From positions 1 through 22,745 of the forward strand of contig WMKJ01000158.1 in assembly GCA_009733715.1 (NCBI GenBank): a stretch of DNA of 22,745 nt, given 5' to 3'. Positions 2,887 through 22,745 of the stretch are shown here, in pieces. Position numbers and translations under genes: made by a program. Source of the stretch: Herpomyces periplanetae (lineage: Eukaryota; Ascomycota; Laboulbeniomycetes; Herpomycetales; Herpomycetaceae). The notes below the pieces were generated by a model. That model was not told the DNA's origin. It saw only the letters and a list, made by a program, of their open reading frames with translations, and did not search any database. Within the stretch, counting starts at the first letter, position 1. Each line of letters opens with the position of its first letter.

Positions 2887-3561
2887 TCATACACGATACA
2901 TTCTCAGTTTGTACTTAAAGCATGCATGCTCATAAATTGGTTCCACCGTTATTATAAGCTGCGATGAGTGAAGGTAGCATCCAAAACAGTACGTCTTTGA
3001 GTTCACCACCAAGTATAATTTTCGTTTTCCATCATTCCCAGTTATGATTTGAACGGAAAACTTGGGATAGTTAACTATTTGTGCCAGCCCAAACGCTACT
3101 CCAAGTGAGCCTTGACTATCTCGTATTCCAACTTTCCCTAAAAATATTCGTTAATTTTCCCATTTTCCTTGCACACAATATTCTTCGTTAGCTTACTCTG
3201 GAATGCATTATTACTGTCTAAAGTCCAAATTTCACCTTCGGTTGTTATCGCAAACTTTATCCTACACTTTACTTAGCCAAATTTTACGAAAAATTTACCG
3301 CTTCACTTAATTTATTGTGTACCTCTTCATGACTAAATTATTCACATTTTGTACGTTTCCAATAGTAAACTTCTCATTAGCATGCCACAAACCATCGTAG
3401 GTTATCCCTAACGATGTATCAATTCCGGGTGAACCATCCTTTAGTATCGGTATAACTTCTTCAAGTTTAATACTAAATCTGCAGACAACATCTCCACGGC
3501 AGCATGCGTAACATAATATCCATATTATCATGAAGGAATAAACCCTTCTAAACATTTCCAT
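2887..3561 (-). CDS. Secreted C-x18-C family protein, member A (short form)
   Basis: The gene is on the minus strand with three exons: 3561-3323, 3261-3197 and 3137-2887 (184 aa, stop TGA at 2887-2889). The introns are 61 and 59 nt, and the second has TTAAC before its TTTTTAG acceptor. The N terminus is a signal peptide (MFRRVYSFMIIWILCYACC; a second ATG lies at 3555). Exon 2 is exactly 65 nt and encodes IKFAITTEGEIWTL, matching the LEFKISNKGEL segment of member D. Exon 3 has KLYLVVNSKTYCFGC, then 18 residues, then C (Cys155 and Cys174). It lacks the Ser-rich linker of the longer members and has an extra Cys152. The family is unknown to me; a secreted effector or surface protein is an inference. 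Splice sites are predicted, but the joined product matches three paralogues. Confidence 0.78.
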
Positions 3562-3752
3562 TATAGTCTCGTTAACTAAAATTCCTCTTTAACTTTTAAT
3601 TCCAGACTTAAGCTTCTCCAAACTGTAAAATCTTCCCTTCTTTATTCTTCATCCGTCTGCTTGTTTTTAATTTTTCTAGCTTTATGCCACGCCGTCCATT
3701 TATCAATTTTCACTTATTTTTTCCATTTTCGCCTTGTATTACCCTTACACTC

Positions 3753-4886
3753 TTACACGTTGCATATCCCGTATGTATCGCTATAATTTGCCCCATAAAA
3801 TTGGCCTTGCAAGCTAAATTTTACGCTTTCGCAGCCCGTATCACATCCATAATTGGTTAGTTGATAAAATGCCAATTCATTATTTTCTTAGCTTAACCTT
3901 TTAGTTTAAGCGCCGTCCTCTTGCTCTAGATAATTCCTCTCTAATAATTAACAGCTTTCAGCCGAGCTTTAACGCAGAAATATATAGCCTTAACCACCCT
4001 CACAATAGCTCCTATGCTTACTTATAACGACAATTGTCAAGCTTGACAATGCGTCCTGCATATAACCACATATACACTTCCATTCTTAATCCGTACCTTT
4101 TGCCTCGCTTTGCATTGAAATACCTCCATTATATCTGCACTCGTCGTAACTTAATTCCATCCTTACCCTTTTGCCCTTCTCCCACAAGCCATTCAAAATT
4201 ATGCCATCTTCACCCTCTCGGCTCCATAATTTCAACATTTACTCTAGTTAGCAGTATACACCATTAACCATCTTTTGTAAGCCTTTTAAACGAAGCAATA
4301 CCATTTTATTTGTATGCCAAAAATCATCTCGTATATTTCTCATCAACGTATAACCCAGTATTAAATCAAACTATGTCATGTTGGCTTAAAAATGCCTGTT
4401 TAAACTAGCCATATAAATTATGATCAGCCTGTGCCTTTTCAACTCCTTATTTGTGATACATTCTCAATGCCACGTTTATAATTATCCCTTTCTTTCCGTT
4501 TCTCTAAAATACTAGTTAGGTTTTAACATTCTACTTCCTCTGAACTCACTCCTACGTATCGCAGCAACAAAACCCCCCAAAATACATACTATCCCACTTT
4601 TGCCAGTTCGCTCCTAGAAATGGGCTCTTGATGTAAATGTCTCTACGATTAATTATGTACTTGACTCAATAAATATATGAATTGTTTACGTACATACAGA
4701 GTGTGTAATCAAGGGTCCCTTTTCCATGTATATGTACTTTATTCCTTCTCTAAAGCTAATTATATTAACATCAACCATGTCCATGTTATCGCATACATGG
4801 ACTGTTAAACACAAACCATTTATCCACGTTCTTGATGGATATATATTCACCTCGAACGCTTTTTCCGTAATATTGGAACTTCCAAT
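3753..4886 (-). pseudogene. Possible decayed or unresolved fifth family member
   Basis: Several exon-like open pieces lie on the minus strand but do not join into one clean gene. One piece (4886 to about 4689, 66 codons, no stop) follows a TTTAG acceptor-like site, contains FEVNIYPSRTWING and ends near a GTATGT donor. A possible exon near 4630-4590 reads NWQKWD, then a GTATGT donor with a later CTAAC branch site. A last piece (3887-3753) reads NELAFYQLTNYGCDTGC and ends soon after another Cys, like the end of member A (TYCFGC). No signal peptide was found, the cysteine spacing is 22 rather than 18, and stops separate the pieces. It could be a pseudogene, two gene remnants, or chance. Confidence 0.3.
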
Positions 4887-5227
4887 CTAAATATTACAGT
4901 TACAATTGTGCCTCTGGTAGAGCATTATCTTCCAAAATGTTAGATTCCTCTTCACAAATTTCGTAATCTGCATACAATATTGCGAGTGATTTCCCCGTAA
5001 CACCTGCCTATCGAGGAATTCACCCCATATCTTGCTCCCAAAAAACGCAGCTAGTTCCCGTAACACTTAGGATAACAGCCTTCACAAAGGATTATTTAGC
5101 ATGTGTGCGGGATTACATCCCAACCCTTGACATAATTCGGGGATCACTTACTCGAAAGTCCTCATGTACACAAAAAAAAAGTAGATAGATCTTAGTCTTT
5201 AAAATACAAACGTAAGGAACTGTGATA

Positions 5228-5336
5228 ATAGTTGGCATATGCCCGAAACTATTTGCTGAGGAGCCCAGCGTATCTTGTTAAAAGGGCTTAGTACGGTTTC
5301 GTAATAATTGCAGGAGGTAGCGTTGCGACATTAAAT
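5228..5336 (+). repeat. Dispersed repeat W, copy 1
   Basis: The core at about 5285-5336 (AAGGGCTTAGTACGGTTTCG and on) closely matches 22074-22125, and weaker similarity extends upstream from CCCGAAA. By eye the cores are roughly 80% alike. The element type is unknown. Confidence 0.6.
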
Positions 5337-5579
5337 ATTTTAGTTTAATTGGCATGCACCTATATGCACTGTTTGAACACTCCAGGCTACACAATTAGAT
5401 CTCGGATGTTGATCTTGATCGTCATTGAAGTGGTTGAATACAATTACAATGTCATGTCATCAAAATTGGGTAGAGCAACCTCACGTTAAGTACATGTGAA
5501 GATGGTCGTGATAAATTGGATTCAAATAGAATTGATATGATTATCCCGTGTATTTAAAACGTTCGAGACACCAACCATT

Positions 5580-6500
5580 ACATGGATTACGAGGACCCAT
5601 TTGTTTTATTTTTATCACGACTCATTTTGTTGTTTTTCTGTTTATACTTAACTTGGAGCCATATCTTTTGTGTGGTCGACACTGACATTGGTATTGTTAT
5701 TGAGCTTTTTGAACTATTGTCCTGTCTAACTTGTCGAGTAAATCTTGCACAGTGCTCAGTTTGAAGTGGTAGGCCACCACATTTCTTATTATAACAATCA
5801 AACACCTTGTTCACCAAAGTAGACGTAACGAGTGGGATCGTTTAACGTAAGAGTATTGCAGCTAGTCAATGTCCAATTTAGTGGACTCCTCACCACAAGG
5901 CCTCGAAATTGAATGCTTCTTGTATACATCTTCACGTGCGGCTTGGCTATGTGTTACGGATGTGACAACCGAAGAGATAGAAGACAAGGGAACAATGAGT
6001 CGATGGAGTGAGTTGCTCTTCAACTTATCGTCGGCTCTTGTTTGGAAGTTCTTATACGAATCTCAAGAAGACTCTTGACAGTGTTATACTCTGAAGCCGT
6101 ATCTCTTGAGTGGTTAATGCTAGCCGTATACAAAGGATACAGTGCTTCATTTCTTGCAGTAGAATGGAAGTCGAGCAAACAAATTTCCCCTGAGAGAGGT
6201 CAACACAACACAAGAGACAATAAACAAATAGAGGGAGGAAAAAAATAGCCAAGGGGAAGCCATCTAAGCTTAGGGCATGACTTGGGCAACAAGAACTGAA
6301 CAAAAAAAAGAATAATAAACCCACAACCAAATATAGCATGGAAGAGATATTATACAGTATAGGGATTTGTGCAAGGAAGGGACCGAACCCAAGGAGTAGT
6401 CTCCATAGCGAAAAATACCATGAGGAATAAGTTCTCAAGGTATTCAAGAGGAAGAAATAAAATTACCAGTTTGAGGAAATATAGGTAGATGACGGAGGAG
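5580..6500. repeat. Dispersed repeat X/Y, copy 1 (old, degenerate)
   Basis: Two segments recur elsewhere in the window. Segment X (about 5640-5766, plus orientation) matches the reverse complement of about 15960-16090; the shared peptide pattern is W-x-HIFC followed by DT-x-IGI. Segment Y (about 5925-6490) matches about 15285-15870 in the same orientation (for example GGAAGCCATCTAAGCT and TTATACAGTATAGGG). X and Y therefore have different relative orientations in the two copies. The sequence is hydrophobic-coding or AT/GA-rich and badly worn. It is probably a remnant of a mobile element, but I cannot name the class. Confidence 0.6.
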
Positions 6501-8300
6501 TTGTGTTCTTTTATACTCACGCGGAAAAGACTTGTCACAGCTGCATTTCACTGTCAACCCCTATCATTTTCTCAAAGATAAGCGTTAAACAAATATTGCG
6601 GAAACAGTCATCCAAGCCATCCAGTATGCGCCTGACTCGGTTTAGTAATCCCGTTACAGCCTTCAAATCGGTGCTACACTGCTGTGACAGCAGGAGCTGG
6701 GGGATGACCGTAAGTCCATACTCATGCTTTTTAGAAAGCGAACTGCGAGTAACCAAGACTGACTTGCAAACATTAGGACAGGTACATATGTACAAGAAGC
6801 GTGTAATAAGGTAGGAATCCGAGACTGCACCCGTAATCGAGCGCTCTGGAAATACACTTGAGTTTGCACAAGCCCCATGGCGCTGGTGGGGGACGAAGTC
6901 CGATTGAAACCATAGGGATGGCTTAGTGCATCAATATGGATTGTGTCGTGCCCATTGCACCCGGTGTGCTAGTGCTCTTGTGACTAGCAAAGGGACCTAG
7001 TCACGTTTATGTAAGCAAATAAGTACCTTTAGCGCTGAACAGCGTGCTGCCAGAATATGGCCAGGTGAAAAATATGATACATCCCGACAAGGATAGGGGT
7101 GCTCATCATGTCCAGTCAGGCAACTTATACATCCGAAGTAATAGCGTTCTAAGGGGCGTCCCGTCGTAAGTTAGTGATGCCGTTGAACCATGTAACGTCT
7201 TTACAGGTACTAGTACTTTCAATAGTGGTTTTTCGCTCAGCTCATTGTTGAACTAAACTGAACGAAAGAGCATTATGCTCGAAATGGTTCTCGGTACCAG
7301 TTGGTAAGATGAGTGATTTTGGTTTTGGTGTCTTAATATGAAAACTCAAAACCATCCATATCTCTTCAGGCCTTGTAAAAAATAGTTCCTGCACAATTTC
7401 ATGGTTGATAATGAAGCGGATCGAGACAAATAGTTTAACTCTCCATATATATAGATCTATCACTGAAAACACCGTATTCTTATCCAGAACTTAAATCTCG
7501 TCAAAACTGATGAAGATGTCCATGTTTCGAGCATCGAAAAGTCCATTTTTGAAGAGTATGCAAGTCAAATCAAGCAAAGGGTGGTGCATGTGATGACCGA
7601 CACCGAGAAAAAACGTAATTTACAAAGATCCAAGGCAAACTAAAGAACATTGACAAGAAATGGAACAAAACAAAATATAGGTGCGAAATGACCATTACCC
7701 GATTTTTGATAAAATCCGTAAAATGATTAACCCGAAACCTGTCTGATTATTCCAAATTTTGAGGATAAGTACACAGACATGTATGGAAGGTGTTTACAAA
7801 ATTTGGGCGTAATTGAACCCTCGAAAAATACAAAACTGTGGTTTTCGGTAATTTTTGTAACGGATTTCTTTCATTTAACTGCTCCTTGTTTTCATTGGAC
7901 ACCCAAGATTTCCCACTTTTTTACCCAGGGGCTTACGACCCTCTCCCTTTTTTTTTTTCCCGGTAACTTGTCGCAATAGCGCTACTCTGTTGTTGCAGAG
8001 AAGTCGCGTTTGGGATACTCTAATGTTTGGTTTTTCTTGACTTGATGTCGGGAGTCATGAATGACAGTATTTTATTTTGTACTTAGCTTTTTTTCAAGCA
8101 GATTGGACACGGATAACCGGACCTATGTAGCACTAGTATCACTGTCGTCAAGGATACGCAAGCGTCGGAACACGACGGAAAGAATCAATATCCATGAGCA
8201 CAAAGCAGATAGCTTTGCAGGCTTATCGCCATCCATCTTGACTTGATTTTATGTTCTTAATACCGGATGGTGCTATCTGTCAGATTATATTATCATGACT
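6500..8300. other. Higher-GC stretch with no recognised gene
   Basis: This stretch is less AT-rich than its surroundings, especially about 6600-7250. It holds several short open frames on both strands. None shows a motif, signal peptide or paralogue I recognise, and many stops interrupt all frames. It lies between repeat X/Y copy 1 and repeat Z copy 1 and may be the interior of an old inserted element. Confidence 0.35.
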
Positions 8301-8309
8301 TAAAAATAA

Positions 8310-8910
8310 TTCTCAAGCTACACTGGACATGCTACAAGCATTGAAGTTAGCAATATATGAGGGTAATCCAATAATGATTATTCTATTTTACGATATATCG
8401 ACCAAGGGTATTTATACTGTTCGCATGTGCGAAGTTGTAATAGTCTTATATATCAAGCTCCAGCTACAGGTAGTAGCTGCTTGGCTTATCTAGATGATGG
8501 CAAGGTGGTTGGAGCAGTAAGTACAAAATGAAGATGAGGGTAAGTATAGATTCGCGGTCTTTCATCTCTTAGCTTTTGTATTTAAACCAGCCTTGTTCCT
8601 CTCTATATTGAAGCATTCGGAGATAAATTTTTTTTGAGTTTATTTTAACTTTACTTTTTTATAAGAAGTTCTACTTAGCTAGATTATTTTAGTTGAACTG
8701 TTTTTGTTATGCGTTTGGTGGGCATTGGCAAAAGTGATGTGAGGGTTGTTCGGTGGATTTTTGTTGCTCATTCCGGTCGAAAAGAGCAAACGGCTTGTTT
8801 TGTAGTCATCACTACACATATTTGTTGACGTTATTTTATGCCTTTTTCTACCAACTATGTCTCTCTGCAGGGTATAGCGTAATATTTAGGGCCAGTTTGG
8901 CAACAGTTAC
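8310..8910 (+). repeat. Dispersed repeat Z, copy 1 (old, degenerate)
   Basis: This copy matches, in opposite orientation, the segments at 18790-19360 (for example TTCGCATGTGCGAAGTTGTA against TTCGCATGTGCGGAGTTGTA, and GGCTTGTTTTGTAGT against AGCTTGTTTTGTAGT near the other end) and 17705-18240. Identity by eye is roughly 60-70%. Some peptide-level similarity persists (FAVFHLLAFVFKPAL against FAILHVVDFVFRPTL), which suggests the ancestor was coding. The element class is not recognised. Confidence 0.65.
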
Positions 8911-9140
8911 ATTTTATAGGATGTTTGAATAGTACTTTTCCGTTTCTCTATTCTCCCTGTATTATATTTCTTGCATTTTTGAAGTTTGCTATTTTTTGTT
9001 TCTGGACCAATTGTATTAAAATTTATCATTAGTTATATTAATCGGTCATTGAGATGTATTACAAAACTATTTCATTGTTCTCTAAAATTTCACACTTAAT
9101 AGGCGAGAGTGTCTAAATTGTGAAATAATATAAATGCTGA

Positions 9141-10146
9141 TTATGACGCCTTAGTGTAAATTACTTCTAATATATACGGTCCGCAAGTTTTTCGTACAGT
9201 TTGGTGTAAGTAAAGGAAGCTTCTAGTAGCATCAGCTTCGCAAAAAGTAAACGTAGCAGAATTGTGGTGTTTTAATACGAATCTACGGTTTATTTTTGAA
9301 TAGGTAACGCTGAAAACAACCTTTTCAGCCCCATCCAGCGAATACGACTCACCTATTCTTGGAGCAAGGGTGTGTAACATATTCGAACTAATATGCACTT
9401 TACGTGAAAATTTTAGAGATCTGTTGTACACATATTCTACAATTGTGTTAGAATCGAAGCTTTAACATGATTCAATTTTTGACTTACTAAACTCTTTCCA
9501 TCTCATTGCTTGGGCCATCAAATACTTGTCATCCTTTAAATGAAACTTGAGTCTGTAATGGTATAAGATGTTGTTGATACAAAAGCCTTATATTACTTAC
9601 ATTGAGTTTTTCTCATGTTCGTTATAATAAATTTTCGCAGTTTTTATCATCAATGTGTCTTCATCACTAACGTAAATATAACCATATTCACAGCTTGGAG
9701 AAAGGGAATGAAAGTTGAACCTAGAAATTGGGCAAATGTAGAAATCCTTAGGGGGAACGCTTGAGCTATCAATGGGAGCTGTTTCAAACGAATTATTTTA
9801 GCCAACTAAAGGTATTATTCAAATTTTTACCTAAATATAAAAATATATATTATTAATTACATGTTGTGGAATCAGAATGGCTTAAAGATGGTTGATTTTT
9901 AGTAAGATAATCAGGTCCTAAATGGTCCGAGAGGGATTTTGTTCCAAAAACTTCATCAAGATCAGACTGATTTAGAATACTTAGGGTCGCAGTGTTTCCA
10001 TATGAATTTAGAATATGATCAGGTATATCAGGGCATTCATTATCTGACAATAAAGTACTTTGATAAGTTAAAGGAGAACTGACATTTGGCTGTGACAGCA
10101 ATACCCTTGAGAGAAACAGAAAAATTAACTTCGGAAGAAACCCCAT
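9141..10146 (-). CDS. Secreted C-x18-C family protein, member B
   Basis: The gene is on the minus strand, with predicted exons 10146-9861, 9778-9601, 9552-9488 and 9436-9141 (274 aa). The start is the ATG at 10146, where a signal peptide begins (MGFLPKLIFLFLSRVLLSQP). A Ser/Asp/Asn-rich linker follows, then a conserved segment with KDFYICPISRF. Next is the 65-nt exon (LKFHLKDDKYLMAQ) and the C-terminal domain with FTFC (Cys242), 18 residues, then Cys261. The introns are 82, 48 and 51 nt, and the last has a CTAAC branch site. The 82-nt intron has no counterpart in the other members and is the least certain; removing it keeps the frame and gives a length close to members C and D. Function is unknown. 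Confidence 0.75.
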
Positions 10147-10259
10147 TACAATGGAATATGAACTTATTTTTTCCACAAAATTCTTGACAGGATACAAATT
10201 TATTAAAATAAAGTCAAATGTCCTCAAATAATTGTTACCGGAGAGTATATGATACAACA

Positions 10260-12900
10260 GGAGTATTTCTATTATATACGGACGTGGCTTTAGTATAGAA
10301 GGAACTAATGATAAGTCTTATTTAGTGGCTAGTGTCAACTTTAATGCAAACTGTCACATGTTCCATTTCAAATATAACTTAATGTTATACATCTCCTTAT
10401 GATACCAAAAAGTTATTGTAAATGTTAACTACAAAAAGGCTAAAATTAAAAGAAAACCCTTGTTTTCTGTACCATTGCGTAGCCAAATTGCTATCAAATC
10501 CTGTAGATAAATAGTAAATATATCATAGATCATGCACACAAAATTTAAGAGAGACAAAATGACCTTCCCAGTTTTTAGGCTGAATAAATTTAATAGTAGC
10601 TGCTTTACAGTTTCATTTAATTACCCAAATAAGAAATATTTATTCACTCATATTTACTCTCCCCTGCTTCCAAATTTTTTAACTTATCTAAATTTATTTG
10701 CTAAGTTTAGTATGTGTCCGAAAATATGTCTATCTAACACTGGAAATATGAATAACTCCAATTTTATAGTTATTCGATTTACAACTAATTATGCGATGCT
10801 TTCGTAATCGTAACTACACATTAAAATTTAAAAATTCCACTCGTCACTCCACACTTTCTAACATAAAGCCTTCCATCAGGTAACACGGGTCAAGCTAATG
10901 GGGGCGCTCGCCATTTTGGTTCGAGACTAAAATCTGACAGATTAACCATTACGTTTGCTATCGGCATTATTATTACTTGCAGAAGCATTACTAGTGTCAT
11001 AGACTCATGGTACTATGTCCCTATATACTGCCTCTAGATAAATATATCCTCCACGTAGAGTAAAATTTTGTATTAACAACTCATTTTCACTTCATTCCTC
11101 TCCTAATTAACTTAGAAGCATTAAACAAAAAGTGACTTGATCAAACGGTCAAAGACTCTTGGAATCTCAACAATATACGGACATAATTTATCTCTCATCC
11201 TCAAGATGATAATATTAATCATTCTTGTTATTTCCATTTAAATACTTTAAGCATTTTCTTTCTATTAGTAGCAAATGTCATTGTAACTATCCTTCCGATT
11301 AGACTTCTCTTTATACAATCACGTGCATTGTTAAGATTATATTTACATCTGTAATTAATTGTGCGGTTATCATTCATTTCTCTCTGCTCTTGTTGCAAAA
11401 GTTCCTATAGCTACAAGGCAAGTTGTATGTCCCATTCGCCCAGAATAGGTAATGGATGGCAACTTTCAAAATAAGCTACATGTCTTTTTTATCAAATTCT
11501 ACCAGACACAAGATAAAAGATGTTCAACTGCAACAAAATAGCTAAGCCGAAATTTTTTTAAAAAGGTATAATAAAAATAAATTCAAAAACAAGATTGATC
11601 TCCCATTGCCTCAGTATAGAGGAGATCAAAGCTTGTATATAAAAGACTTGAGATGGGAAACGGCGAAATCTTTACTTTGAATCATTGCTCTTTACTTTTA
11701 GCCTTAAATATTTCACCCATACAAAGATAAGTTTGACAACTACTGTTTGTAGTCGTAATCTAATAGAGAAGGCTATGACGACTTTGTACGTGCAAACAGT
11801 ATAAGTGCCCTTGTGGTTATTTCGGAATATAGAATAATCATCATTAGATAATCCCCAAATATTGTTAACTACAATAATTGTAGCATATCTGGTGCAGGTT
11901 GAGAATTATTTAGAAGCAGTAAAAATATAATATAACTGAAAGCATCATATGATGTTAGAAATATAAACTCCAACTATAATGATTGGCGATAAGCACGCAA
12001 AGTTACCAGCTTAAGGTTCACGAGAATTAGATCTGTTCTCCAAGCAGTAACATCATCCAGAAGTCATATAGAGATAACCATATTTGATCATTTCTCATTA
12101 TGATTACATATTTTTAGCAAGCCGCTCCATATAATCGGGTAAATGGCAGTATTCTAAATACTAATTTCTACTTGAAATTAGCAAGAGACTAACTACCATT
12201 CTCCCTGGCACCAATGTAAGCCAAACAATTTCAAAAGCTAACTGCTCTTGAGCGACCGAGGCTTGAACACTGTCCAAATATTATTCCGAAGAGTATACTT
12301 CAGGCTTTAGCCCTTGCATATCATTGGCGGGACTGATACTAGTGCTACATGGGCCAGTTTGTATGTTAATTTTCACCTAACAAGGGCTGGATAGGCCCTG
12401 CTCTCTATGTACATTAGTTTAAAGCTATTCCGAATAACTCGAGACATCATTTAAAAATAATATTTAAACGCCAGGGTATGCCGTTCGTGACACTACTCTA
12501 TAACACATTATAAGCTGCAATGTTAAGTGTGTGGTGTCCTCGCGATTCTGTCGGAAGCTGGCCAGTGAGTGCCGCTTTCTGTGCGCGTTCACCCATATCC
12601 GACTTTGGCTGGACCACAAAATAAAAGCATGTCATTTATTCGTGACAGAATATATTCAAGAATCTTCAATCCAACCCAGTTTCAAACATGAATTTTTGAT
12701 GCGACTTGCGAAGCGGCCCCGATAACAATGCAGTATAGCCATGCATGTCATAAAAGAACAGAGATTTTAATGATTTGAGTATAAGAAGGTTACGGGAAAA
12801 TTATTAAGGCGAATGAGGCAATAGTGATAAACCTGTATTACGGCGAGAGAAAAGGTCGATAAAGGAAACAAAAAGGCTTTCAGCTATAATAACAGATTTA
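10260..12900. other. Long AT-rich intergenic stretch
   Basis: No convincing gene is visible. A 91-codon open frame at 10532-10807 has an ATG but no motif, no signal peptide and no paralogue. A more GC-rich patch at about 12525-12725 is open for about 64 codons without an ATG and is not recognised. A small inverted repeat lies at 11595-11629. The right part (12730-12900) is the upstream region of the small ORF at 12923. Confidence 0.4.
11595..11629. repeat. Small inverted repeat
   Basis: TTGATCTCC at 11595-11603 is the perfect reverse complement of GGAGATCAA at 11621-11629, with a 17-nt loop. No gene nearby explains it, and chance is possible. Confidence 0.4.
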
Positions 12901-12922
12901 TTTTTAGTAGTTGGAAAAAATA

Positions 12923-13138
12923 ATGAAAGAAAAGGCGTATAACAAGGGTAACGGCATAATGTTGCACCACGTTTGGAAGGTCGAGTTTTTTCTCTATAGA
13001 CTTTGGGCCGACAGTATTATTTTGCCCACTGCCGTTGTAATGATATTGGTACTTTTCTTGATGCGCTTTTGCTACTTTTCGATAAAAGACTATTTATCCG
13101 AAATTCCTGCAGATGAAAGTTTTACAGACCTGGATTGA
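12923..13138 (+). CDS. Hypothetical 71-aa single-pass membrane protein
   Basis: The ORF starts at the ATG at 12923 and stops at TGA. Residues 1-25 are polar and basic (MKEKAYNKGNGIMLHHVWK). A hydrophobic segment of about 22 residues follows (IILPTAVVMILVLFLMRF), then an acidic tail (SEIPADESFTDLD). The charge pattern, the clear tail and somewhat higher GC than the flanks make it look like a genuine small gene. I do not recognise the family. It resembles many small ER or mitochondrial accessory proteins only in layout. An open hydrophobic stretch downstream (13199-13474, no ATG) could belong to the same transcript, but I cannot link them. Confidence 0.4.
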   Translation: MKEKAYNKGNGIMLHHVWKVEFFLYRLWADSIILPTAVVMILVLFLMRFCYFSIKDYLSEIPADESFTDLD

Positions 13139-13485
13139 ACTCAAACATTTACTTTATGGTTAGGACACAATTACTCCTGAGTAGCTTTGTAATCGCTGTT
13201 GTTCGGTCAGCTATTTAGCTGGACCATAATAATAATACCAATACTTTCAAATTTAGCGATATTTGCATTTCTGGTTTTGTTTTTTTTATTATACAGCTGC
13301 CTTCCTCATATACTAGTAATAACTTGTAGACTGCAGTTCGCTGTACAATGGCTATGGTCCCAGAGCAAACCTATTTTTTTTATGGTTAACTTTTGTTATT
13401 GTGTATATTTTCTCCAATATTTGGGGGTAAATGTGAATTTTAAACAATATCTTGCATTAAGAATTTCTCAATAATACAATTATGC

Positions 13486-14427
13486 CTATTGTTTGGTATT
13501 TAATACTGTTTTTGATAAAAACTGTAATTTGAATTTGTAACAGTTTTGAGACATAACAAGTCGGGTCACTAAAAATAAAGCCGTGTCATTGTAATAACAG
13601 AACGTAAATATGTCTTTATTCCCGTGCCTAAAATAATCCCTTTCCAAAATTTTGTGATATTTGGATGAGATTGGTTTATACTTTTTTCCAATCTCGTCCC
13701 TACGTTGCCCTAAGACGATTGTTGAGTTTAAAGCTTTGGTAAAGGGTAAACCACCTTTTCCATATCTGTAATCTGGCATATTTTCATAAAAATTTTCTGT
13801 AAAATGTGAGATTAAGAAAATAATCTTATGTAAACTTACCCCACACTAAACTGGATTTTACCTTCCCCAATAAATATCCTTGTGTATCTATACAAAATTC
13901 TAACCTGAAATACTATATTCAGTATATTACTAATATATATATTTTGGATCATACATGTAGTTTTTCCTATGTTGTTCATCTAAATATGGCGATAATCTTG
14001 TCAAAACATGACCAGTCTCACTTAGAAATAAATAGTTCATGCTCCAAACAATTCTAGTATCAATTATTGCATCCGAATCATATGGTATCGGCTTTAGAGA
14101 AAAGAAAATATCTGAATCTATGTCAACGAATTTCGTATTTGCGTAGTTGTGTTCTTCTACTATTGAATGTTGAGGAACAGCTATACTAGAGGAGTGAAGA
14201 TGGTCTCCTGTGATTTTATTGAGCGATTGAAGAGGATGGCTTTCGACAGCATTATCCATTGGAATAACCTCAGAAGTGGAAGAACTGAAAGTGCAAGTAA
14301 TTTCTTGTATACGATCAAAAAATGATGACATTGAGTCGAACTCAGTTATGTCATGTGTAAATTCTGTGGGAGACTTCGGACTGGGTTGGCACAATACGTA
14401 GCTTAAAAATAACCAAACATGAATCAT
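13486..14427 (-). CDS. Secreted C-x18-C family protein, member C
   Basis: The gene is on the minus strand with three exons: 14427-13955, 13904-13840 and 13796-13486 (282 aa, stop TAG). The introns are 50 and 43 nt, with donors GTATGA and GTAAGT and acceptors TTTCAG and TTACAG. The signal peptide is MIHVWLFLSYVLC, followed by QPSPKSP. A Ser/His-rich linker of about 90 residues leads to a conserved segment with IFFSLKPIPYDSD and W-x-x-x-YLFL. The 65-nt exon encodes LEFCIDTQGYLLGK and ends in W, as in member D. Exon 3 begins ENFYENMP (ENLYRR in D) and carries IFTFC (Cys246), 18 residues, then Cys265. The splice pattern is supported by close agreement with D. Function is unknown; it is probably secreted. 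Confidence 0.85.
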
Positions 14428-15130
14428 TTTGAAAATTCAAAATTCAATAAAATTTAAAAAAATAATCATGATCAAACTTGAAATTATACAAAAATTTATA
14501 TTTATTTTATATACATAATGAAAACTCTAACAAAAGAACATAAAGTGCACGGACACTAAATTCATATAAGGCGAATCACGCAAAGATATGTTTAAATATT
14601 CAATCAAATTTTTAATATTACCAACAAGTGTCATTATGTATTCTTGTAATTCAAATACCTTGCGTAAAAGAGCAGCGTAAGAATTTGAAAGCAAGTTATT
14701 AATATAGCTACAATTAAAATTTGCATTACGGATTTTGTGATAAATGAAAGTACTTTGAATTCACATGGTTATAATTTTATAATTTTCAAAAACGTCTAAA
14801 CCATAAATACCGCAAAGACGAAATATCTACTAATGTTACAAAATATTACCTTTTATTACAAGATTATTTCAGTGAGTGTTTTTCAAAATTCATAGTGTTA
14901 TGAGATTTAGTTACTAATATTAGTCCCCATGTACAGATAAAATTATTGTACAAAGAGAAATTTGGAAAGCATAGAACGTCTTTAGAGATTACTATAACAA
15001 TTGTGGATGTATTAGTATATTTAAATATTATATTCAGAGTTTATTTTTGGAGAACAGTATTTCTGAGAACTGTCATCTATATTTTAGTAACCAGGTGAAA
15101 TATTAAAACTCCAACGTAATCACTTGTTCT
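14428..15130. other. Very AT-rich upstream region of member C
   Basis: This stretch is very low in GC, with many A/T runs and no open frame worth reporting on either strand. It includes the presumed promoter of the minus-strand gene ending at 13486. I see no specific regulatory site. Confidence 0.45.
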
Positions 15131-15284
15131 AGAGTGGTTCAAAGCATCTATGACCATGGACAAACATTTTATGGAAGTAGCATTCACAAAACCTTAATTC
15201 TTGATATTTTGGGTGAATGTGACGCTTCTCTGGTTTTAATACTGGATGTTCTTTTTTCTGCTTTGATCAAACTTTATTTCATAA

Positions 15285-16100
15285 CAGTTACGAATGTGAC
15301 CACCGGAGAGAGAAAAGACAAAGATCTTGCGGATAAGGAGGGAAGGGTGTCTTGAGAGGAGCTGCTCTTCAACTCACCGCCCGCTCTTAACCGAAAGTCT
15401 TTTTCGGTGTTTCAAGATGAATTTTTACTATTACACCCTGAAGTGGTATCCCTTAAGTGGTCAACACTAGCAGAATTTGAAGAATATGATCACGGCATCA
15501 TCACAGGATCCTCTACTGGCAATAGAGTGGAAGTCGAGTAAAAGGCTTGCCTTTGAAGGAGAACAACTCAGCACTATCAAGCAAGCGAACAAGTAGAGGA
15601 GATAAGAAAACTGAAAGATGAAGGGAGGCCATCTAAGCTCAACACAAGACTTGTGCAACAAGAATTGAGCAAAAAAATAAACTCACAACTAGATGCACTA
15701 TGGAACAGATTTTATACAGTATAGAGGCATGCACAAGGAAGAAGTCTAACCTAAAAAGTAGTCGCCATAATGGAAAATACCATGGTAAAAGAGTGTTCAC
15801 TGTATTCAAAAGGAAGAAGTAAGATTGCCAGTTGCAGAAAATATTTGGAGATAACGGAGAAGTCATCTGGGTTGTCTTGCATGGTGTTGCACGCGCTTTC
15901 ACGACATATCAAGGTTTACTTGGCAAACAGGCAGTATAATTATTATGCCGGGTGAAGTATCTACAAATGCTTCAAATAACACACTGTGCAGAACTTACTT
16001 TACAACATTGACAGGGAAACAACACAACAAACATAGTAATAATACCAATACCAGTGTCGATCAGACAAAAGATATGGTTCCAAAATAATTACGTAACGGA
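15285..16100. repeat. Dispersed repeat X/Y, copy 2 (old, degenerate)
   Basis: Segment Y (about 15285-15870) matches 5925-6490 in the same orientation, for example GTTACGAATGTGACCACCGG against GTTACGGATGTGACAACCGA. Segment X (about 15960-16090) matches 5640-5766 but as its reverse complement. The copy is worn and split by small insertions and deletions. The original element class is not recognised. Confidence 0.6.
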
Positions 16101-16222
16101 CAAAAAGTATGCAGTCATCTCTTTATCAACAGCTGGACGAGAAGATAAAGACAAGAAACATAAAACGAGAAAGATGATCCTCCCAAGATCCCAGTCGTCA
16201 TTTGAACCTTGGACATCTTAAA

Positions 16223-16282
16223 CACGTGAGATGGCTAAGTCAACTCCATTCGAGTCAGATTTATGTTAGCCATCTCCACGTG
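16223..16282. repeat. Inverted repeat, 16-bp arms
   Basis: CACGTGAGATGGCTAA (16223-16238) pairs with TTAGCCATCTCCACGTG (16266-16282), with a single extra base and a 27-nt loop. It lies just past repeat X/Y copy 2. It could be a terminal piece of a small DNA element, a hairpin, or a paired E-box (CACGTG). Confidence 0.65.
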
Positions 16283-16289
16283 TATATAT

Positions 16290-17455
16290 ATTTATCAAAT
16301 TACTTCACCGTATTTTCATGTGATGACATTGTAATGCAATTAGTAATTGCAATCACAATAGAAATAAATGTTCCGGTATGATCACAGGTGCGCATTAGTG
16401 CCCTAACACTCATCATATGTGCGAACCGCACATTTCTGCGTTTGTCCATTCAGCTTTGACGTGACAATACGGAATCCCTTTTTGAAATTGCTGTGAAACT
16501 GAACCAGACTCTTGTAACAGACTACATTATTCTCCTGAAAAAATGTTCAACTGATATTTCCTGTTAGGTGACAATTATCATCATAATACTCCTTGTTTAC
16601 ATCATGAAAACCGAAAAACTATCTGTTTTTCCTTTATGTATCCCTTGGTATTTGACTACGTGAGAACCAAATCACTCTACCAGGATTGGTCTGCTTTTAA
16701 AGAGAAGCAGGGATTCGCACATATTACATAAGCAGAGCTAACTGCATCTAAGGATTTCATATGATGTTACACATTGCATTTCAGCATGGTAGATATGTGT
16801 TCTTCCCATGTGATGTACCATGTAAGAGGTTTACTGAGCAAATACGTGCTACGAGTGATTTTTGGTAACATGAACGTGTGAATTTTGTGTAAATAGATGT
16901 TTTCGGCACCGTAATCGTGAATAATTCTGTTAGTTTTGGAGTAATAAATTTATTGTTGACGAAACGGTGAGCTCGATGTCAGATCTATTTTTATGGAGGC
17001 TTTAATATTTTATTCCAATTTATACTACTATTTATCATGGAATGGAGATGTCACTACTTTCACAAAAGTGTAAGTGATCTAGAATGATTTGTGTTTTTAC
17101 TCTTTGCAGGCACTTGATTCCCTAACAATAACGTTACCAACTGGTATTTCGAGTTGTGCTTATACTAATGATTCTCATTCGTTTCAACGTGGTACGAACT
17201 AATGGGACATTTGTTATTTTGGGTATCAGTATTTGTACTACTTGACAGTCTCCAAATTTCAATAAAATATTGTGGGATTTAATCGAGTATTGCTCACTTC
17301 TTATCACAATAAGCAAGCTTTTTACTCACAGTAACTGCTTATTTACCTTTGTTTCTTGTAACTTGCTTCATGAAATTAATAAAAAGACTCGTGGTTCGCA
17401 GACTGTTATTTATGATTATTTAACGCTTTTGTACTAAATTTTTTAAGTTTCATTA
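16290..17455. other. Intergenic stretch, nothing recognised
   Basis: No exon, motif or paralogue of the secreted family was found on either strand. Short open frames are present but have no support. Confidence 0.4.
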
Positions 17456-17459
17456 ACTA

Positions 17460-17690
17460 CATTTTGGCTATACTTCTGTTTATGCAATTCTCCATATTGT
17501 ACGAAATCCTTCCGTCCTTGCATATTGCTGTGTTTTTATACTCATGTTCCGTCTTAAACTTAGATAAATTTCCACAGTTTATCTTTTCCCCTAATCCATC
17601 ATCACATCTCTTTCCTTTGCTTGTGTATGATTGTCTTCTCACTAAGGAAATCCGTCTTCACGTGTCCTATTCTGCTTTTAGCAGAGGTGT
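17460..17690. repeat. Dispersed repeat Y, copy 3 (partial, inverted)
   Basis: This segment matches the reverse complement of the Y segment of copy 1. The shared peptide pattern is ILY, then hydrophobic residues, then CS or CC, then LNLD or LSLD before FP. It lies directly beside repeat Z copy 2. It is shorter than the other Y copies. Confidence 0.5.
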
Positions 17691-17704
17691 GTTACTCTCT
17701 ACTT

Positions 17705-18240
17705 TGCTGTTCGGAGTAGTTTAATTGGTAGAGCAAGGCACATGAAAAAAACGTAAGCAAGTATAGTTATAACTACAAATATTGACTAGTTGTCCTACTC
17801 GACCTGAGCATGTAAAAAACTACAATCCTCCAAACAACTACAAGAAAGTTTTGTCAGAGTCGACTAGACCAAAATAAAAGGTAGCCCAACAAAATATAAA
17901 CTAGTTATGCATAAAAAAAAAAGCTATATGTGAAACTTGTAAAACAAAATTAATCTCCGTAAATCCATACTTGAAAGGGATCCAGACCACTTTGAATACA
18001 AAAGCAACGATGTGAAGGGCTTGACCTTGTTTCACGCTTCGATGTTTGCACACCCTCGACGAAAATGATACTGGTGCTATATAGATCAGCTATCTTAGTA
18101 CTATTTACGTAATGTCATCTGTGTGCATGAGAAAGGCTATGAATCATAGTTAATAAAGGCAAGGCGAAGAAAATCATAATAACAGAATAGGCTAATCGCG
18201 GCATTACTCTGTAGCATAGAGCTGATTTAACATTCTTATT
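17705..18240 (-). repeat. Dispersed repeat Z, copy 2 (old, degenerate)
   Basis: This copy is in reverse orientation to Z copy 1 and in the same orientation as Z copy 3. Shared sequence includes CTCTACCAATT against TTCTACCAACT, and a peptide pattern LHIVAFVFK like those of the other copies. It is more worn than copy 3. Confidence 0.55.
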
Positions 18241-18279
18241 GTGTCGAAATTTTCACCTCGTTTCTAATATTTTTGCCAG

Positions 18280-18537
18280 GTCGTTTCTTTTCCGCTTCAC
18301 TACGCAGTGAATATTTCCGTTCATGTGTTTGGAGGGAAGGTTTCTTTCAGCTTCGTATTTACCCATTTCAGGAATAACAGTCCTAAAACTACCAACTTGC
18401 TATATTGGGAAGCTGGTTTTAGTAAGGGCACAAGAAATACTTCAAGTCCCGATTTTTCAGGCAATCTAGTACTCTTTCATGGAAATCAAGGATTTTTTGT
18501 ACTGAAAGCTATAATAGCTGGACTTCCGGAAAAATAG
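18280..18537 (+). CDS. Possible orphan exon, unrecognised
   Basis: An open frame of 85 codons runs from a TTTTTGCCAG acceptor-like site to a TAG stop at 18535-18537, with no ATG near its start. Its composition is more protein-like than that of other chance frames here (for example LLYWEAGFSKGTRN and GNLVLFHGNQGFFVLK). I could not find an upstream exon or a relative in the window. It sits between two copies of repeat Z and may belong to the repeat landscape rather than to a host gene. Confidence 0.22.
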   Translation, partial: VVSFPLHYAVNISVHVFGGKVSFSFVFTHFRNNSPKTTNLLYWEAGFSKGTRNTSSPDFSGNLVLFHGNQGFFVLKAIIAGLPEK

Positions 18538-18789
18538 GAACTTAACAGCTAAGCAAAGCTAACGACCCATTTTCTTCAGTCGATCTACATGTAACATGTC
18601 ATTTTGCTCCAATGAGCTGTTATAATAAAATTTTTAGTAGACTTTAATATTGAGATTGTAGTTTTTTAAAAGGAAATTGTTCTCGTAGCGTCAGACTCTG
18701 CGCTGTTGTAGGCCAGCTGCCCCACTAGTAAAGGATCAATCCAGTAATCGTGGCCATAGTTTATGTAGCATCGAAATGATACCCTCTAT

Positions 18790-19360
18790 CCTGCAGCGAG
18801 GTGTAGTATAGTTGACAAATAAAGTTATAAGATAGTGTAAATATAGGAACAACTACAAAACAAGCTGTTTGTCTTATTCGATAAGAATACGTAACGGACA
18901 TCAACCCTCCAAATAAATCACACGTGATTTCTGTTTAAGTCCATCACACACAAGACATGAGATGTTCAACGAAAATTAACTAGTTAAGAATATAATTTTA
19001 TGAAAAGATAAAACAAAATTAAATACCAAAACAATATTAATCTTTAAGTGCTTCAATAAAATAAAGATCAAGGTCGGCCTAAATACAAAATCTACGACGT
19101 GAAGGATTGCAAATTTTATACTTTCCCTCATCCTCGCAATGAACCATCTGCATTGACCATCACCATTTCTTCGAGATAAGTCTACCAACTACTACATATA
19201 GAAGGAGCGTCATAAACAAGACTGTTACAACTCCGCACATGCGAATCCCATATTCGCCGTTGTTATCTTGGAAGGTGAAATAATCGCTATACAATTATAG
19301 CTAAATCTTGCCAATTGCAACGCTAGGAGCATATCAGGAGTGCTATGAACAACTGTTTGA
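18790..19360 (-). repeat. Dispersed repeat Z, copy 3 (old, degenerate)
   Basis: Read on the minus strand, this copy aligns along most of its length with Z copy 1, including both ends (TTCGCATGTGCGGAGTTGTA and AAACAGCTTGTTTTGTAGT). One minus-strand stretch (about 19190-18976) stays open with the pattern FAILHVVDFVFRPTL. The class of element is unknown. Confidence 0.62.
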
Positions 19361-19369
19361 AGCTATGAA

Positions 19370-20800
19370 AACACAAAATTACTAAGGGAATTATCTTATA
19401 ATGGCAATTTAGAAACCAGCCACAATAATTGATAAAAAGCGCAAAACGCTTCTAGCTATGAATTCACGTTCATTATCGCTTTAAACCAAACGGTATATAC
19501 TACCTAAAACTACTTGAATACTACACACATCTAGACTTAAATTGATATGGTCACCTTGAAAAATGAAGCTAATTGCACCCAATTAGCATGTTCTTGGACC
19601 ATATACGCATCATTTCGGATGTAATTTTTCATGCAATAAAGTTTAAATATACTTGAAGAAAACGACTTTAGTGCCATATAATTCTCGTTATTTACGAATT
19701 TCTTATATGAAAAAACCAATTATACAACAAAGCCTTACCATCCATAATATCAAAAAGCAAGCTAAATATATAACGTGTCAGATTATGCTAAACGTAGCTT
19801 CACTCTGTAATACTCCGCTTGGACAACCGGACATTAATATTGTAAGTAGTCAACTTCAGTTCTCTATGGCTAAATAATGAATCGTGGGCCCTGCAACAAT
19901 TTTCCGGTGAGACACAGTTGGAACCCTTACAGTCTTGCCTCTTTTCAGTATTTCTCTGTGAAAATTACATATAGAGAGTATGTCTTAATTTCAAAGCAAA
20001 CAACCCACTGAAAGTAATTGAAATGAGGCTCCAGGTAAAATTTATGACAAAAACATATGCACATAAGCAATAGGTGTACAAATGACAATTCTTGCACCAC
20101 ATATAAAAAAGAAAAAAATGCTACAGAGAACTAAGTGTAATATAAATTTTGTTAGTCTGTCTTCTGTTTGTGTCAAATATATGTATTATGTGTATTATAT
20201 GTATCATATGTACATATGTTTGCCACACAGCAGCAAAACTTTTGGTGTTGATAAAACTAAAAAATTATCATTCACTAACTTCTTCCTCTCAATTAATAAC
20301 TGAAATATGATTAAACAAAAGTAACACTGATATTATTATGAATAGATATCACTCCGTGATTTTTAACAGCAATACACTTCTTAAGCAAGGTAGCAAATAT
20401 TATCTTTTAAGGCCGTATAAAATACCATATTTTGAATTCAGAAATTTTTAGCATGCATATCTTCCTTTAGAAAAATTTTATAGCGGAGTACTGAGGTAAA
20501 ATTTTGTAAAACTTAGGATTACATTAAAAATTTCAGTTCCTAATTTTGAAATATAATATATATTAACATGTAAAAGCGCGTAATATAGCGTCTTTCAATA
20601 AATATAAATGTCAATGTAACACAATTACATGTATTTCGTATATAATGCATGCAAGATTTTTCAAACTTTATGTTAAGTATCGCATATATAATTGATTCTT
20701 ATTTCCATATTTCATAGTTTATCTATTGAAAATATATTAAGATAAAAACTTCCGTTCTCTTAAAATCAAATATTCCAACTAAGCACTTTTAATATTCACT
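19370..20800. other. AT-rich stretch upstream of member D
   Basis: No gene is supported. Open frames at 19653-19877 and 20082-20303 lack motifs and conserved relatives. A TATG/TATCA simple repeat lies at about 20177-20220. The last 200 bases are very AT-rich and are the presumed promoter of member D. Confidence 0.4.
20177..20220. repeat. TATGTATTA-type simple repeat
   Basis: This is a run of imperfect TATG/TATTA/TATCA units, typical of microsatellite-like AT-rich DNA. Confidence 0.6.
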
Positions 20801-21721
20801 ATGATACTTTTTTGGTTATTGTTGGGGACAAGTCTCTGTCAGCCCCCGGATGAAACAGAAGGTTCTATATTTGATTTTCAAAGTTATTCATTGAAAACTT
20901 CACCAATTTCGGATGACGATTCGTGCCAACCCGAGGTACCTTTCAAAAAGTTCAAGACATCTCATTCATCTCCATCAAGTTTAGTAAATCCGTCTTATTC
21001 AGTTGAACAAGGAAATTTTCCGTCAAGCTCCAGCAATAGTCAACCATATCCTCGAAAAGGTGAAAGAAAAATATTGAAAGATGGTACAGTAATGAAGACC
21101 AAGGAAGCAATAGATTCTACATTCTATCTTTTACCTGTACCTCTGGAAAATTCAGCGCACCAAGCATTGTTTAATTGGGAAAGCTGTTACCTGACACTTG
21201 GTAAAAATAATGTGTTGGTTGTCCCTACTGTTAATGTGAAATCTTCGAATAAAATTAAAGATACAAAGTATAACTCAGCTATATGGTTACTTTTCCAAGC
21301 TTCACATTTTAACTTGGGAATTGGTTAGGCTAGAGTTTAAAATCAGTAATAAGGGTGAATTATTTGCAAAATTGCCAACCACTCAGACATGGGGTATGTT
21401 AAGGAATATTAGCCACTTAAATCTAACTTTTTTGTAGAAAATTTATATCGACGTGCAGATTCGAAAGACTTCGTAGTCGAAAGATCCGCAGCAAACGCAC
21501 TTATAACCACATTATTTGTGGGTGCGATAACTGGTTCTTTAAGCGTACCATTCAATCAAGCGAATTACATATTATTACTTGACAATATTAAATATTTTGT
21601 TTTTAAGGGTAGAAATATCTTTAGTCTATGTCCCTACGGCGAAGATACGTATTTTTTTTCCCTTAGAAAAACATCTGTGCAACAATGTACCTCTATCAAA
21701 CTAGTGATAATTCCATTATAA
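20801..21721 (+). CDS. Secreted C-x18-C family protein, member D
   Basis: The gene is on the plus strand with three exons: 20801-21267, 21329-21393 and 21438-21721 (271 aa, stop TAA). The introns are 61 and 44 nt; the second runs from GTATGT to a CTAAC branch site and TTTTTTGTAG. The signal peptide is MILFWLLLGTSLC, followed by QPPDE. Residues 15 to about 105 form a Ser/Pro/Lys-rich linker (for example SSPSSLVNPSYS). Then come FYLLPVPLENS and NWESCYLTL, which align with member C. The 65-nt exon encodes LEFKISNKGELFAKL and ends in W. Exon 3 holds IKYFVFKGRNIFSLC (Cys242), 18 residues, then Cys261. It is the only plus-strand member. Its function is unknown; secretion is a prediction from the signal peptide. 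Confidence 0.83.
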
Positions 21722-22745
21722 AGCAACAAGAGTGTGTAACTTCATATTATATTAAAAATGGAATATTAACTAAGTACAAACTTTAATATACATATTATAA
21801 TTAAACTATTTGAATTCAAATTAGAAAATCAATGAAATTATATTGCTGTCCGATAGTTAAAATTAGTTTAGAAAACTCTTTTTTATGTAACTTCCAATGA
21901 ATTGATTGAAACACATTCTGTAGCTATCCTCAAACTGGATGGTGTGATCATGCTCAAAATTTGGAAACGATCAGAATCGTGATATTGCTATTGATATGGC
22001 ATTTTGATGAACGTCGTTATGTTCCCGAAAATATCAGTTGACGATTTCTGAAGACCCTTGTAAGGCTTGCTGCAAGGGCTTACAACGGTTTCGTAGTAAT
22101 TGCAGGAAGCAATGTCGCAGTAATACCGGAGAATGGGTATTATTTGTCATTGCAATTTCTTAACTCTGATAAAGTTTCAATTGCGTAATAGTTATCACCG
22201 TAATGTCATATTAGTAACAAAATCACATTTCCGGTTGTTCCCAAATTTTGAGCATAGTTACAATTATACACTTTAAGGATTGCCACAGTATTTCCTCCCC
22301 TTAGATCCACGAGAAGGTACAAAAACAAAATTTGTTATGTCAAGTTTTAGACACATAAAATCATGCGGTATTTTATTTTGGATTTTATTCAAATAGTTAT
22401 TTAAAATAGTAAAATAAATTTTATTTCCTATTTGTATCCCATTTATCACTAAATATTAAGTTAGACATTATTGTGGCGTACTTTTGGAATTATCACTAAT
22501 CTAATTTGGAAACATTTATTTACTCTTACTTTCCTAATAGAAAAAAAGTATTCCTTGCTTTTATTAGGACAAACATTAAATATAGTTCTGAACCGATATA
22601 AAAAATATTTAATATTATTTTCTATAAATATATATTTAAATTTCGCGAATGGTTTACTTGAAACTCGCAGTTAACCTAAATATAGCGTGGTTTTGAGTGC
22701 ATTGTTTGTAGATTTTTCTGCTGAAAGGGAACTTGAATCACTACA
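21722..22745. other. AT-rich right flank
   Basis: Apart from repeat W copy 2, I see no supported gene. An open frame at 22471-22674 has a non-ATG start and an AT-driven composition (Leu, Ile, Lys, Tyr, Asn), so I do not call it. Confidence 0.4.
22030..22125 (+). repeat. Dispersed repeat W, copy 2
   Basis: The core at 22074-22125 matches 5285-5336 (AAGGGCTTACAACGGTTTCG and on). Its frame stays open further than in copy 1, with the pattern NGFVVIAGSNVAVIPENGYY, so the ancestor may have been coding. It lies 300 bp after member D. Confidence 0.6.

Follow-up and report, generated by a model that had tools for sequence, protein, structure and literature searches.

A family of predicted secreted fungal proteins with a common exon layout and a C-terminal cysteine pair

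The 22,745-bp stretch of DNA analysed here (the window) comprises the entire contig WMKJ01000158.1 (hereafter C56) of a small, AT-rich 13.79 Mb assembly of 220 contigs, and it carries five members, A–E, of a family of predicted secreted proteins. Members A–D had been described in an original prediction as one undescribed family. When they were rebuilt with GT..AG introns, all four genes spliced as predicted, with ends coinciding exactly with the earlier coordinates. Member A (2887–3561, minus strand; 184 aa) has exons at 3323–3561, 3197–3261 (65 nt) and 2887–3137, and member B (9141–10146, minus strand; 274 aa) has exons at 9861–10146, 9601–9778, 9488–9552 (65 nt) and 9141–9436. Member C (13486–14427, minus strand; 282 aa) consists of exons 13955–14427, 13840–13904 (65 nt) and 13486–13796, and member D (20801–21721, plus strand; 271 aa) of exons 20801–21267, 21329–21393 (65 nt) and 21438–21721. 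The exact 65-nt middle exon was present in all four genes, flanked by a phase-2 and then a phase-1 intron; B has one extra intron upstream (5') of the two family introns. The predicted exon models are mutually consistent. Full-length identity of A, B and C to D was 20–27%, and A, the most divergent member, has no long N-terminal segment. A six-frame search with D added a fifth copy that the original prediction had not listed: member E (22485–22742, minus strand), a D-like last-exon fragment at the contig end, 48% identical to D and containing one in-frame stop (TAA).

The motifs by which the four proteins had been grouped were all recovered. The segment [LI]-[EK]-F-x-[IL] occurred in each of them (IKFAI, LKFHL, LEFCI and LEFKI), as did C-x18-C near the C-terminus, preceded by FTF in B and C and by FSL in D, in line with the proposed F-[ST]-[LF], and by YCFG in A. 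Signal-peptide-like starts, judged by eye, were present in A–D and were followed by SQP or CQP in three of the four. The common spacing had been called unlikely by chance, and when the same numbers of cysteines were placed at random in each last exon, a spacing of 18 arose in all four in 0 of 200,000 trials, and any common spacing in 2 of 200,000. The observation is confirmed, and its interpretation, discussed below, is partly supported.

A search of the whole genome had been proposed as a check, and six-frame protein searches with A–D, and then with the strung-together domains of further members, placed 19 family loci on 11 contigs: C24, C36, C52 (two), C56 (five), C71, C95 (three), C108 (two), C130, C160, C178 and C189. 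This number is a lower bound and does not include a weak extra match at C24:5850–6134 (E 0.09). Member D matched C24 (E 7.0e-15 and 7.1e-12) and C52 (2.1e-13 and 1.4e-8), C matched C95 (5.1e-8), C36 (1.4e-6) and C130 (2.1e-6), and B matched C71 (1.8e-6). As a query, A found nothing in the genome other than itself. Three loci are broken or decayed, namely E, C71 (first part only, broken after the first exon) and one of the three C95 loci. The last of these (7500–8450) is a decayed D-type copy with several stops, so the family includes pseudogenes.

The remaining 16 loci could be modelled across both family introns; for C95b, C160, C178, C52b, C36 and C189 the models span the domain, with the full 5' end unchecked. 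Both introns lay at the same place and in the same phase in all 16. The middle exon was 65 nt long in 13 and 62 nt in C95b, C108b and C52b, and the last two cysteines were separated by 18 residues in 13, by 20 in C52 and C178, and by 17 in C189. The C-x18-C spacing proposed as the defining feature is therefore constant in A–D and typical rather than invariant family-wide. The exon layout, together with a tryptophan closing the middle exon (13 of 16), provides further hallmarks of the family beyond the motifs first described. One donor in C95a was non-consensus (GTCCTC). The same layout was kept by C178, whose DNA is somewhat richer in GC (39.6% vs. 35.5%). A branch-point-like YTRAY occurred within the final 30 nt of 21 of the 29 introns of 14 family genes, where shuffling expects 11.5. 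The layout was also used as a scan (AG, 65 nt, GT and a downstream exon with C-x18-C), designed after A–D had been seen. It matched A–D and five genes elsewhere (on C24, C95, C108, C130 and C160) and gave no match once that DNA had been reversed (210,536 bases, both strands); because the scanned contigs had been preselected by protein match, the scan tests the layout and not the existence of the family.

In a 14-row alignment of the domain, five columns were invariant, including both cysteines, and the other 13 members were 15–41% identical to D. A tree of 16 rows grouped D with C24 and C52 (support 100/99), B with C160, C95b and C52b (96/97), and C95a with C130, C36 and C108b (95/97), while A sat on a very long branch (7.08). 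Since the window members fall in separate groups, they represent different old subfamilies and not a recent tandem array.

A start was visible by eye at 16 loci (all modelled members minus C95b, plus C71). At 11 of these (B, C, D, C24, C52, C52b, C95a, C108a, C130, C178 and C189) the hydrophobic stretch was followed by [CSG]-Q-[PS], and most mature proteins would thus probably begin with a glutamine, which would likely cyclise to pyroglutamate. Between residue 21 and the domain, 10 of 11 proteins had a segment of 74–133 residues rich in Ser with Asn, Thr and Pro, of which A has almost none. In C52b (C52:20050–21250) this N-terminal segment contains tandem repeats of about nine residues (NPNYHQSAL). 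Eight of the 16 members have F-[YF]-L-x-P at the start of the domain. Its middle exon encodes a predicted hairpin of about 22 residues, and the domain ends with an F-x-F-C-P-Y-N-like motif followed by C and then L. Three of the four B-type members (B, C95b and C52b) also carry a cysteine in the opening motif, F-Y-[LI]-C-P, which mirrors the closing one. From the conservation of the last two cysteines we infer a disulfide between them.

The family had not been recognised in the original prediction, and the database searches agree with this. Pfam returned no credible match for the 14 members searched at E≤10; three families each matched a single member, LytTR in B (E 0.026 over the full length, best 0.0084), Cna_B (0.062) and DUF956 (0.28), and all three were taken as chance. 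A 14-member profile found no PDB sequence at E≤10, and eight versatile peroxidase matches of a four-member profile (E 2.1–2.7) were likewise put down to chance. A search of 5.8 billion proteins with the four-member alignment gave 3280 candidates and no match among them at E≤1; it required shared five-residue words, and distant relatives would escape it. DUF7908 (PF25485) had no match in the genome itself at E≤10 and was listed for none of the 14 members. Early guesses of an apicomplexan source and of FAINT-type proteins were dropped, as Pfam showed nothing of the kind and the neighbouring SRP54 gene matched Pezizomycotina. The family as observed has consistent gene models, a common architecture, a minimum size and no match in the databases searched.

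The SRP54 gene occupies the left end of the window (760–2467, plus strand), with its start codon at 760, a short first exon at 760–837 and the main open frame at 1007–2467. Its matches were 64–73% identical among the 120 listed, from 8000 scored candidates sharing most words, and every recognised named match among those listed is presumably a Pezizomycotina fungus. A quickly built 62-row tree placed it with Eremomyces on a branch of 0.85, which is too long for trust. SRP54 points to a fast-evolving lineage of Pezizomycotina as the source. A possible small gene lies upstream of it at 431–529 on the plus strand (open frame MRFGFPTQNLPPSPPPHSHGMPG..., read by eye).

The window also carries two dispersed repeats, both old and decayed. 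Repeat 1 (8188–8908) has inverted copies in the window at 11501–12012 and 18852–19245 and at least 30 matches in the genome including itself, the other 29 at 64–73% identity. Repeat 2 (15884–16640) has at least 45 matches including itself, the others at 62–76% identity with one at 83%. One or other of the two repeats marks 38 contigs, several of them family-bearing. Without C56, of the 10 remaining family contigs 7 are among the 37 so marked (P 1.9e-4; 0.0075 and 0.0032 for the repeats singly), a probability that assumes contigs drawn evenly and leaves contig size uncontrolled. Repeat-induced point mutation (RIP) is not favoured as the engine of divergence, because the RIP composite index was below zero in 22 of the 23 segments of the window, among them the segments that hold A–D; the exception was 17001–18000, at +0.14, where some RIP would be conceivable. 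In a check of subtelomeric position, doubled TTAGGG was absent from the fetched pieces of 10 contigs.

The original prediction had also suggested diversifying selection, which found no support in pairwise ratios of nonsynonymous to synonymous substitution (dN/dS). By the NG86 method, the closest pairs (among D, C24 and C52) gave 0.53, 0.56 and 0.63 with dS at 1.0–1.25, near saturation. For the 15 pairs among six genes, 11 values were defined, all at 0.31–0.68, and dS was undefined in four. Values below 1 indicate constraint on average; positive selection at single sites is neither shown nor excluded.

One known group of fungal proteins resembled the family in profile comparisons. The genome search listed a single gene (C110:147442–147666, minus strand) above the gathering score of PF22799 (PIR1-like_C; 27.6 bits), at 42.1 bits, and its translated protein scored 40.3 bits. 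Its C-terminus reads F-F-M-C-P followed by C and has an Asp-rich tail. A protein search with it found nothing, and its matches to antibody light chains in PDB (best E 0.0042) were taken as chance. With hhalign, the 14-member family scored 22.1 against the C110 protein alone, above 100 of 100 residue shuffles, and 18.6 when three yeast Pir C-termini were added to C110, a score higher than all 100 column shuffles (10.6 when reversed). With 16 members the family scored 19.7 against C110, 16.1 against the yeast set and 20.1 against the two combined, in each case higher than all 60 shuffles. The five comparisons overlap and do not count as independent tests. Pfam recognised the yeast sequences at 114–120 bits. 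The aligned stretch covered 28–51 columns at the C-terminal end, including the first cysteine only in the case of C110 alone and both cysteines with the yeast set. Pir C-termini are predicted beta-trefoils (PMC10483737), and Pir4 has the predicted bonds C195–C212 and C128–C225 (PMC8975586). Of these, C195–C212 (x16) would be the counterpart of the family pair (mostly x18). This inner pair alone is conserved in the family (16 of 16), and the outer pair is not.

Taken together, we consider it reasonably probable that A–E form part of a multigene family of secreted, extracellular proteins, specific to its lineage, in a fast-evolving fungus of the Pezizomycotina. Each protein would enter the secretory pathway. 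A segment of some 75–130 residues, rich in Ser and probably disordered (lacking in A), would precede the C-terminal domain, which is about 165 residues long and probably all-beta. A disulfide between the last two cysteines, in most members 18 residues apart, would clamp the final beta-hairpin. This domain may act extracellularly, on the fungal surface or at a host interface, as a binding module that varies around a conserved disulfide core, and its fold may be remotely related to the beta-trefoil of Pir-type C-termini. The copies would have spread and diverged within a repeat-rich compartment of the genome. Of this, secretion, disulfide, fold and binding role are inferred. The reading as a whole is favoured by the invariant intron positions, the near-constant exon length and cysteine spacing, the significant matches of B, C and D to other contigs, the layout scan, the [CSG]-Q-[PS] motif at most visible starts, the abundance of family contigs among repeat-marked ones, and Pir profile scores above all shuffles with the cysteines in register with the yeast set.

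Several points weigh against this reading. The exons and the localisation are predictions from sequence, and the signal peptides, the Ser-rich segment and the absence of a glycosylphosphatidylinositol (GPI) tail were all judged by eye. The membership of A is based on architecture and cysteines alone. At 5 of the 16 visible starts (A, C36, C71, C108b and C160), [CSG]-Q-[PS] was missing. No pair with a defined dN/dS value exceeded 1. Regarding the Pir resemblance, the hhalign probability was 1.3–8%, none of the 14 members was listed with PF22799 at E≤10 (a limit at which the filters of HMMER already discard most matches weaker than about 0.1), the DGQ repeat was found in none of the 11 proteins examined, and the Pir-like gene on C110 has no intron inside the domain, so that gene structure does not tie the family to Pir.

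The alternative that survives best is that these are divergent cell-wall proteins of Pir-like descent, from which the Pir repeats and outer cysteine pair have disappeared and which serve wall architecture and not host interaction. We regard this as possible but doubtful. Several features would be common to the family and Pir proteins: both would be secreted fungal proteins with a disordered N-terminal part and a C-terminal domain rich in beta-structure (predicted here for the family), both carry F-x-x-C and a further C near the end (C-x16-C in Pir4, mostly C-x18-C here), and a weak profile alignment places their last 50 or so residues in register. The genome holds one Pir-like gene. A comparison of the thirds of the domain by profile (15 rows, A excluded) showed r1 and r3 to be alike over 9 columns and r1 and r2 over 13 columns, with 0 of 40 shuffles as high in either case, as a beta-trefoil could show; r2 and r3, however, showed no similarity, 26 of 40 shuffles being as high. 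The profile match lies in the right place and above the shuffles but is weak in absolute terms, and PF22799 matches, DGQ repeats and the C128–C225 pair of Pir4 are lacking. Moreover, the family has two introns inside the domain, against none in the C110 gene, and such divergence and copy number would be unusual in structural wall proteins. The weak resemblance to Pir C-termini is therefore best treated as a suggestive lead. A bolder account, which we consider improbable, is that an undescribed, expanded family of surface or effector proteins arose from a Pir-type wall domain. Having shed the repeats and the outer disulfide but retained a single cysteine clamp, this domain would have become a variable binding module for the host interface, the common origin being visible mainly in the near-invariant exon layout.

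It is very unlikely that the genes are cargo or by-products of the dispersed repeats, either transposon-encoded or captured and lacking a host-directed role. The enrichment of family contigs among those with either repeat (contig size uncontrolled) and the decayed or broken state of some copies would fit such an origin, but 16 copies retain the cysteine pair and splice layout, the two repeats of the window exclude the genes, and the pairwise dN/dS below 1 suggests constraint. Chance resemblance among four unrelated small secreted proteins, or in non-coding AT-rich DNA with spurious splice sites, has next to no probability: the low identity of A–C to D and the abundance of splice-like sites in AT-rich DNA would allow it, but the matches of B, C and D on other contigs, the same exon and phases in A–D and the 65-nt exon in 13 of 16 models overall, the empty scan of reversed sequence and the shared layout of C178 in somewhat GC-richer DNA speak against it. 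For B, C and D the sequences already refute it, while A is placed by architecture alone.

The favoured reading, a lineage-specific family of secreted, surface or effector-like proteins, has parallels among known effectors. MAX effectors resemble the predicted domain in having a beta-fold, one conserved disulfide and identities often below 25%, but their two cysteines lie 34–49 residues apart (PMC4624222), in contrast to 17–20 in all 16 models of this family. The Ecp32 candidates of Dothistroma and Fulvia are secreted Dothideomycete paralogues, 22–49% identical within species, with introns at the same positions in two gene pairs and a predicted beta-trefoil fold; they differ in having none to five cysteines and five paralogues (PMC9493481). 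RNase-like effectors of Blumeria, and other effectors of similar structure and unrelated sequence, are also lineage-specific expansions with eroded sequence (PMC9816061, PMC6759760), and in powdery mildew RNase-like proteins a conserved intron position was argued to reflect common origin (PMC6759760). The present family differs from these in being known from sequence and in matching neither Pfam nor PDB sequences. A two-part exported protein whose disulfide core is conserved and whose surface changes freely would have the look of several fungal families of the host interface or cell surface.

Secreted families with eroded sequence are often recognised by structure alone. Here, a layout signature, in which a phase-2 and a phase-1 intron flank an exon of 65 nt, and a cysteine pair unite proteins down to about 15% identity, and because this signature is mechanical, more members could be listed in this and related genomes without structures. 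If the link to Pir proteins were true, one class of effector-like proteins would derive from an ordinary wall protein. Should the fungus live as a symbiont or parasite bound to a host, the family would be an obvious candidate for acting at its host interface.

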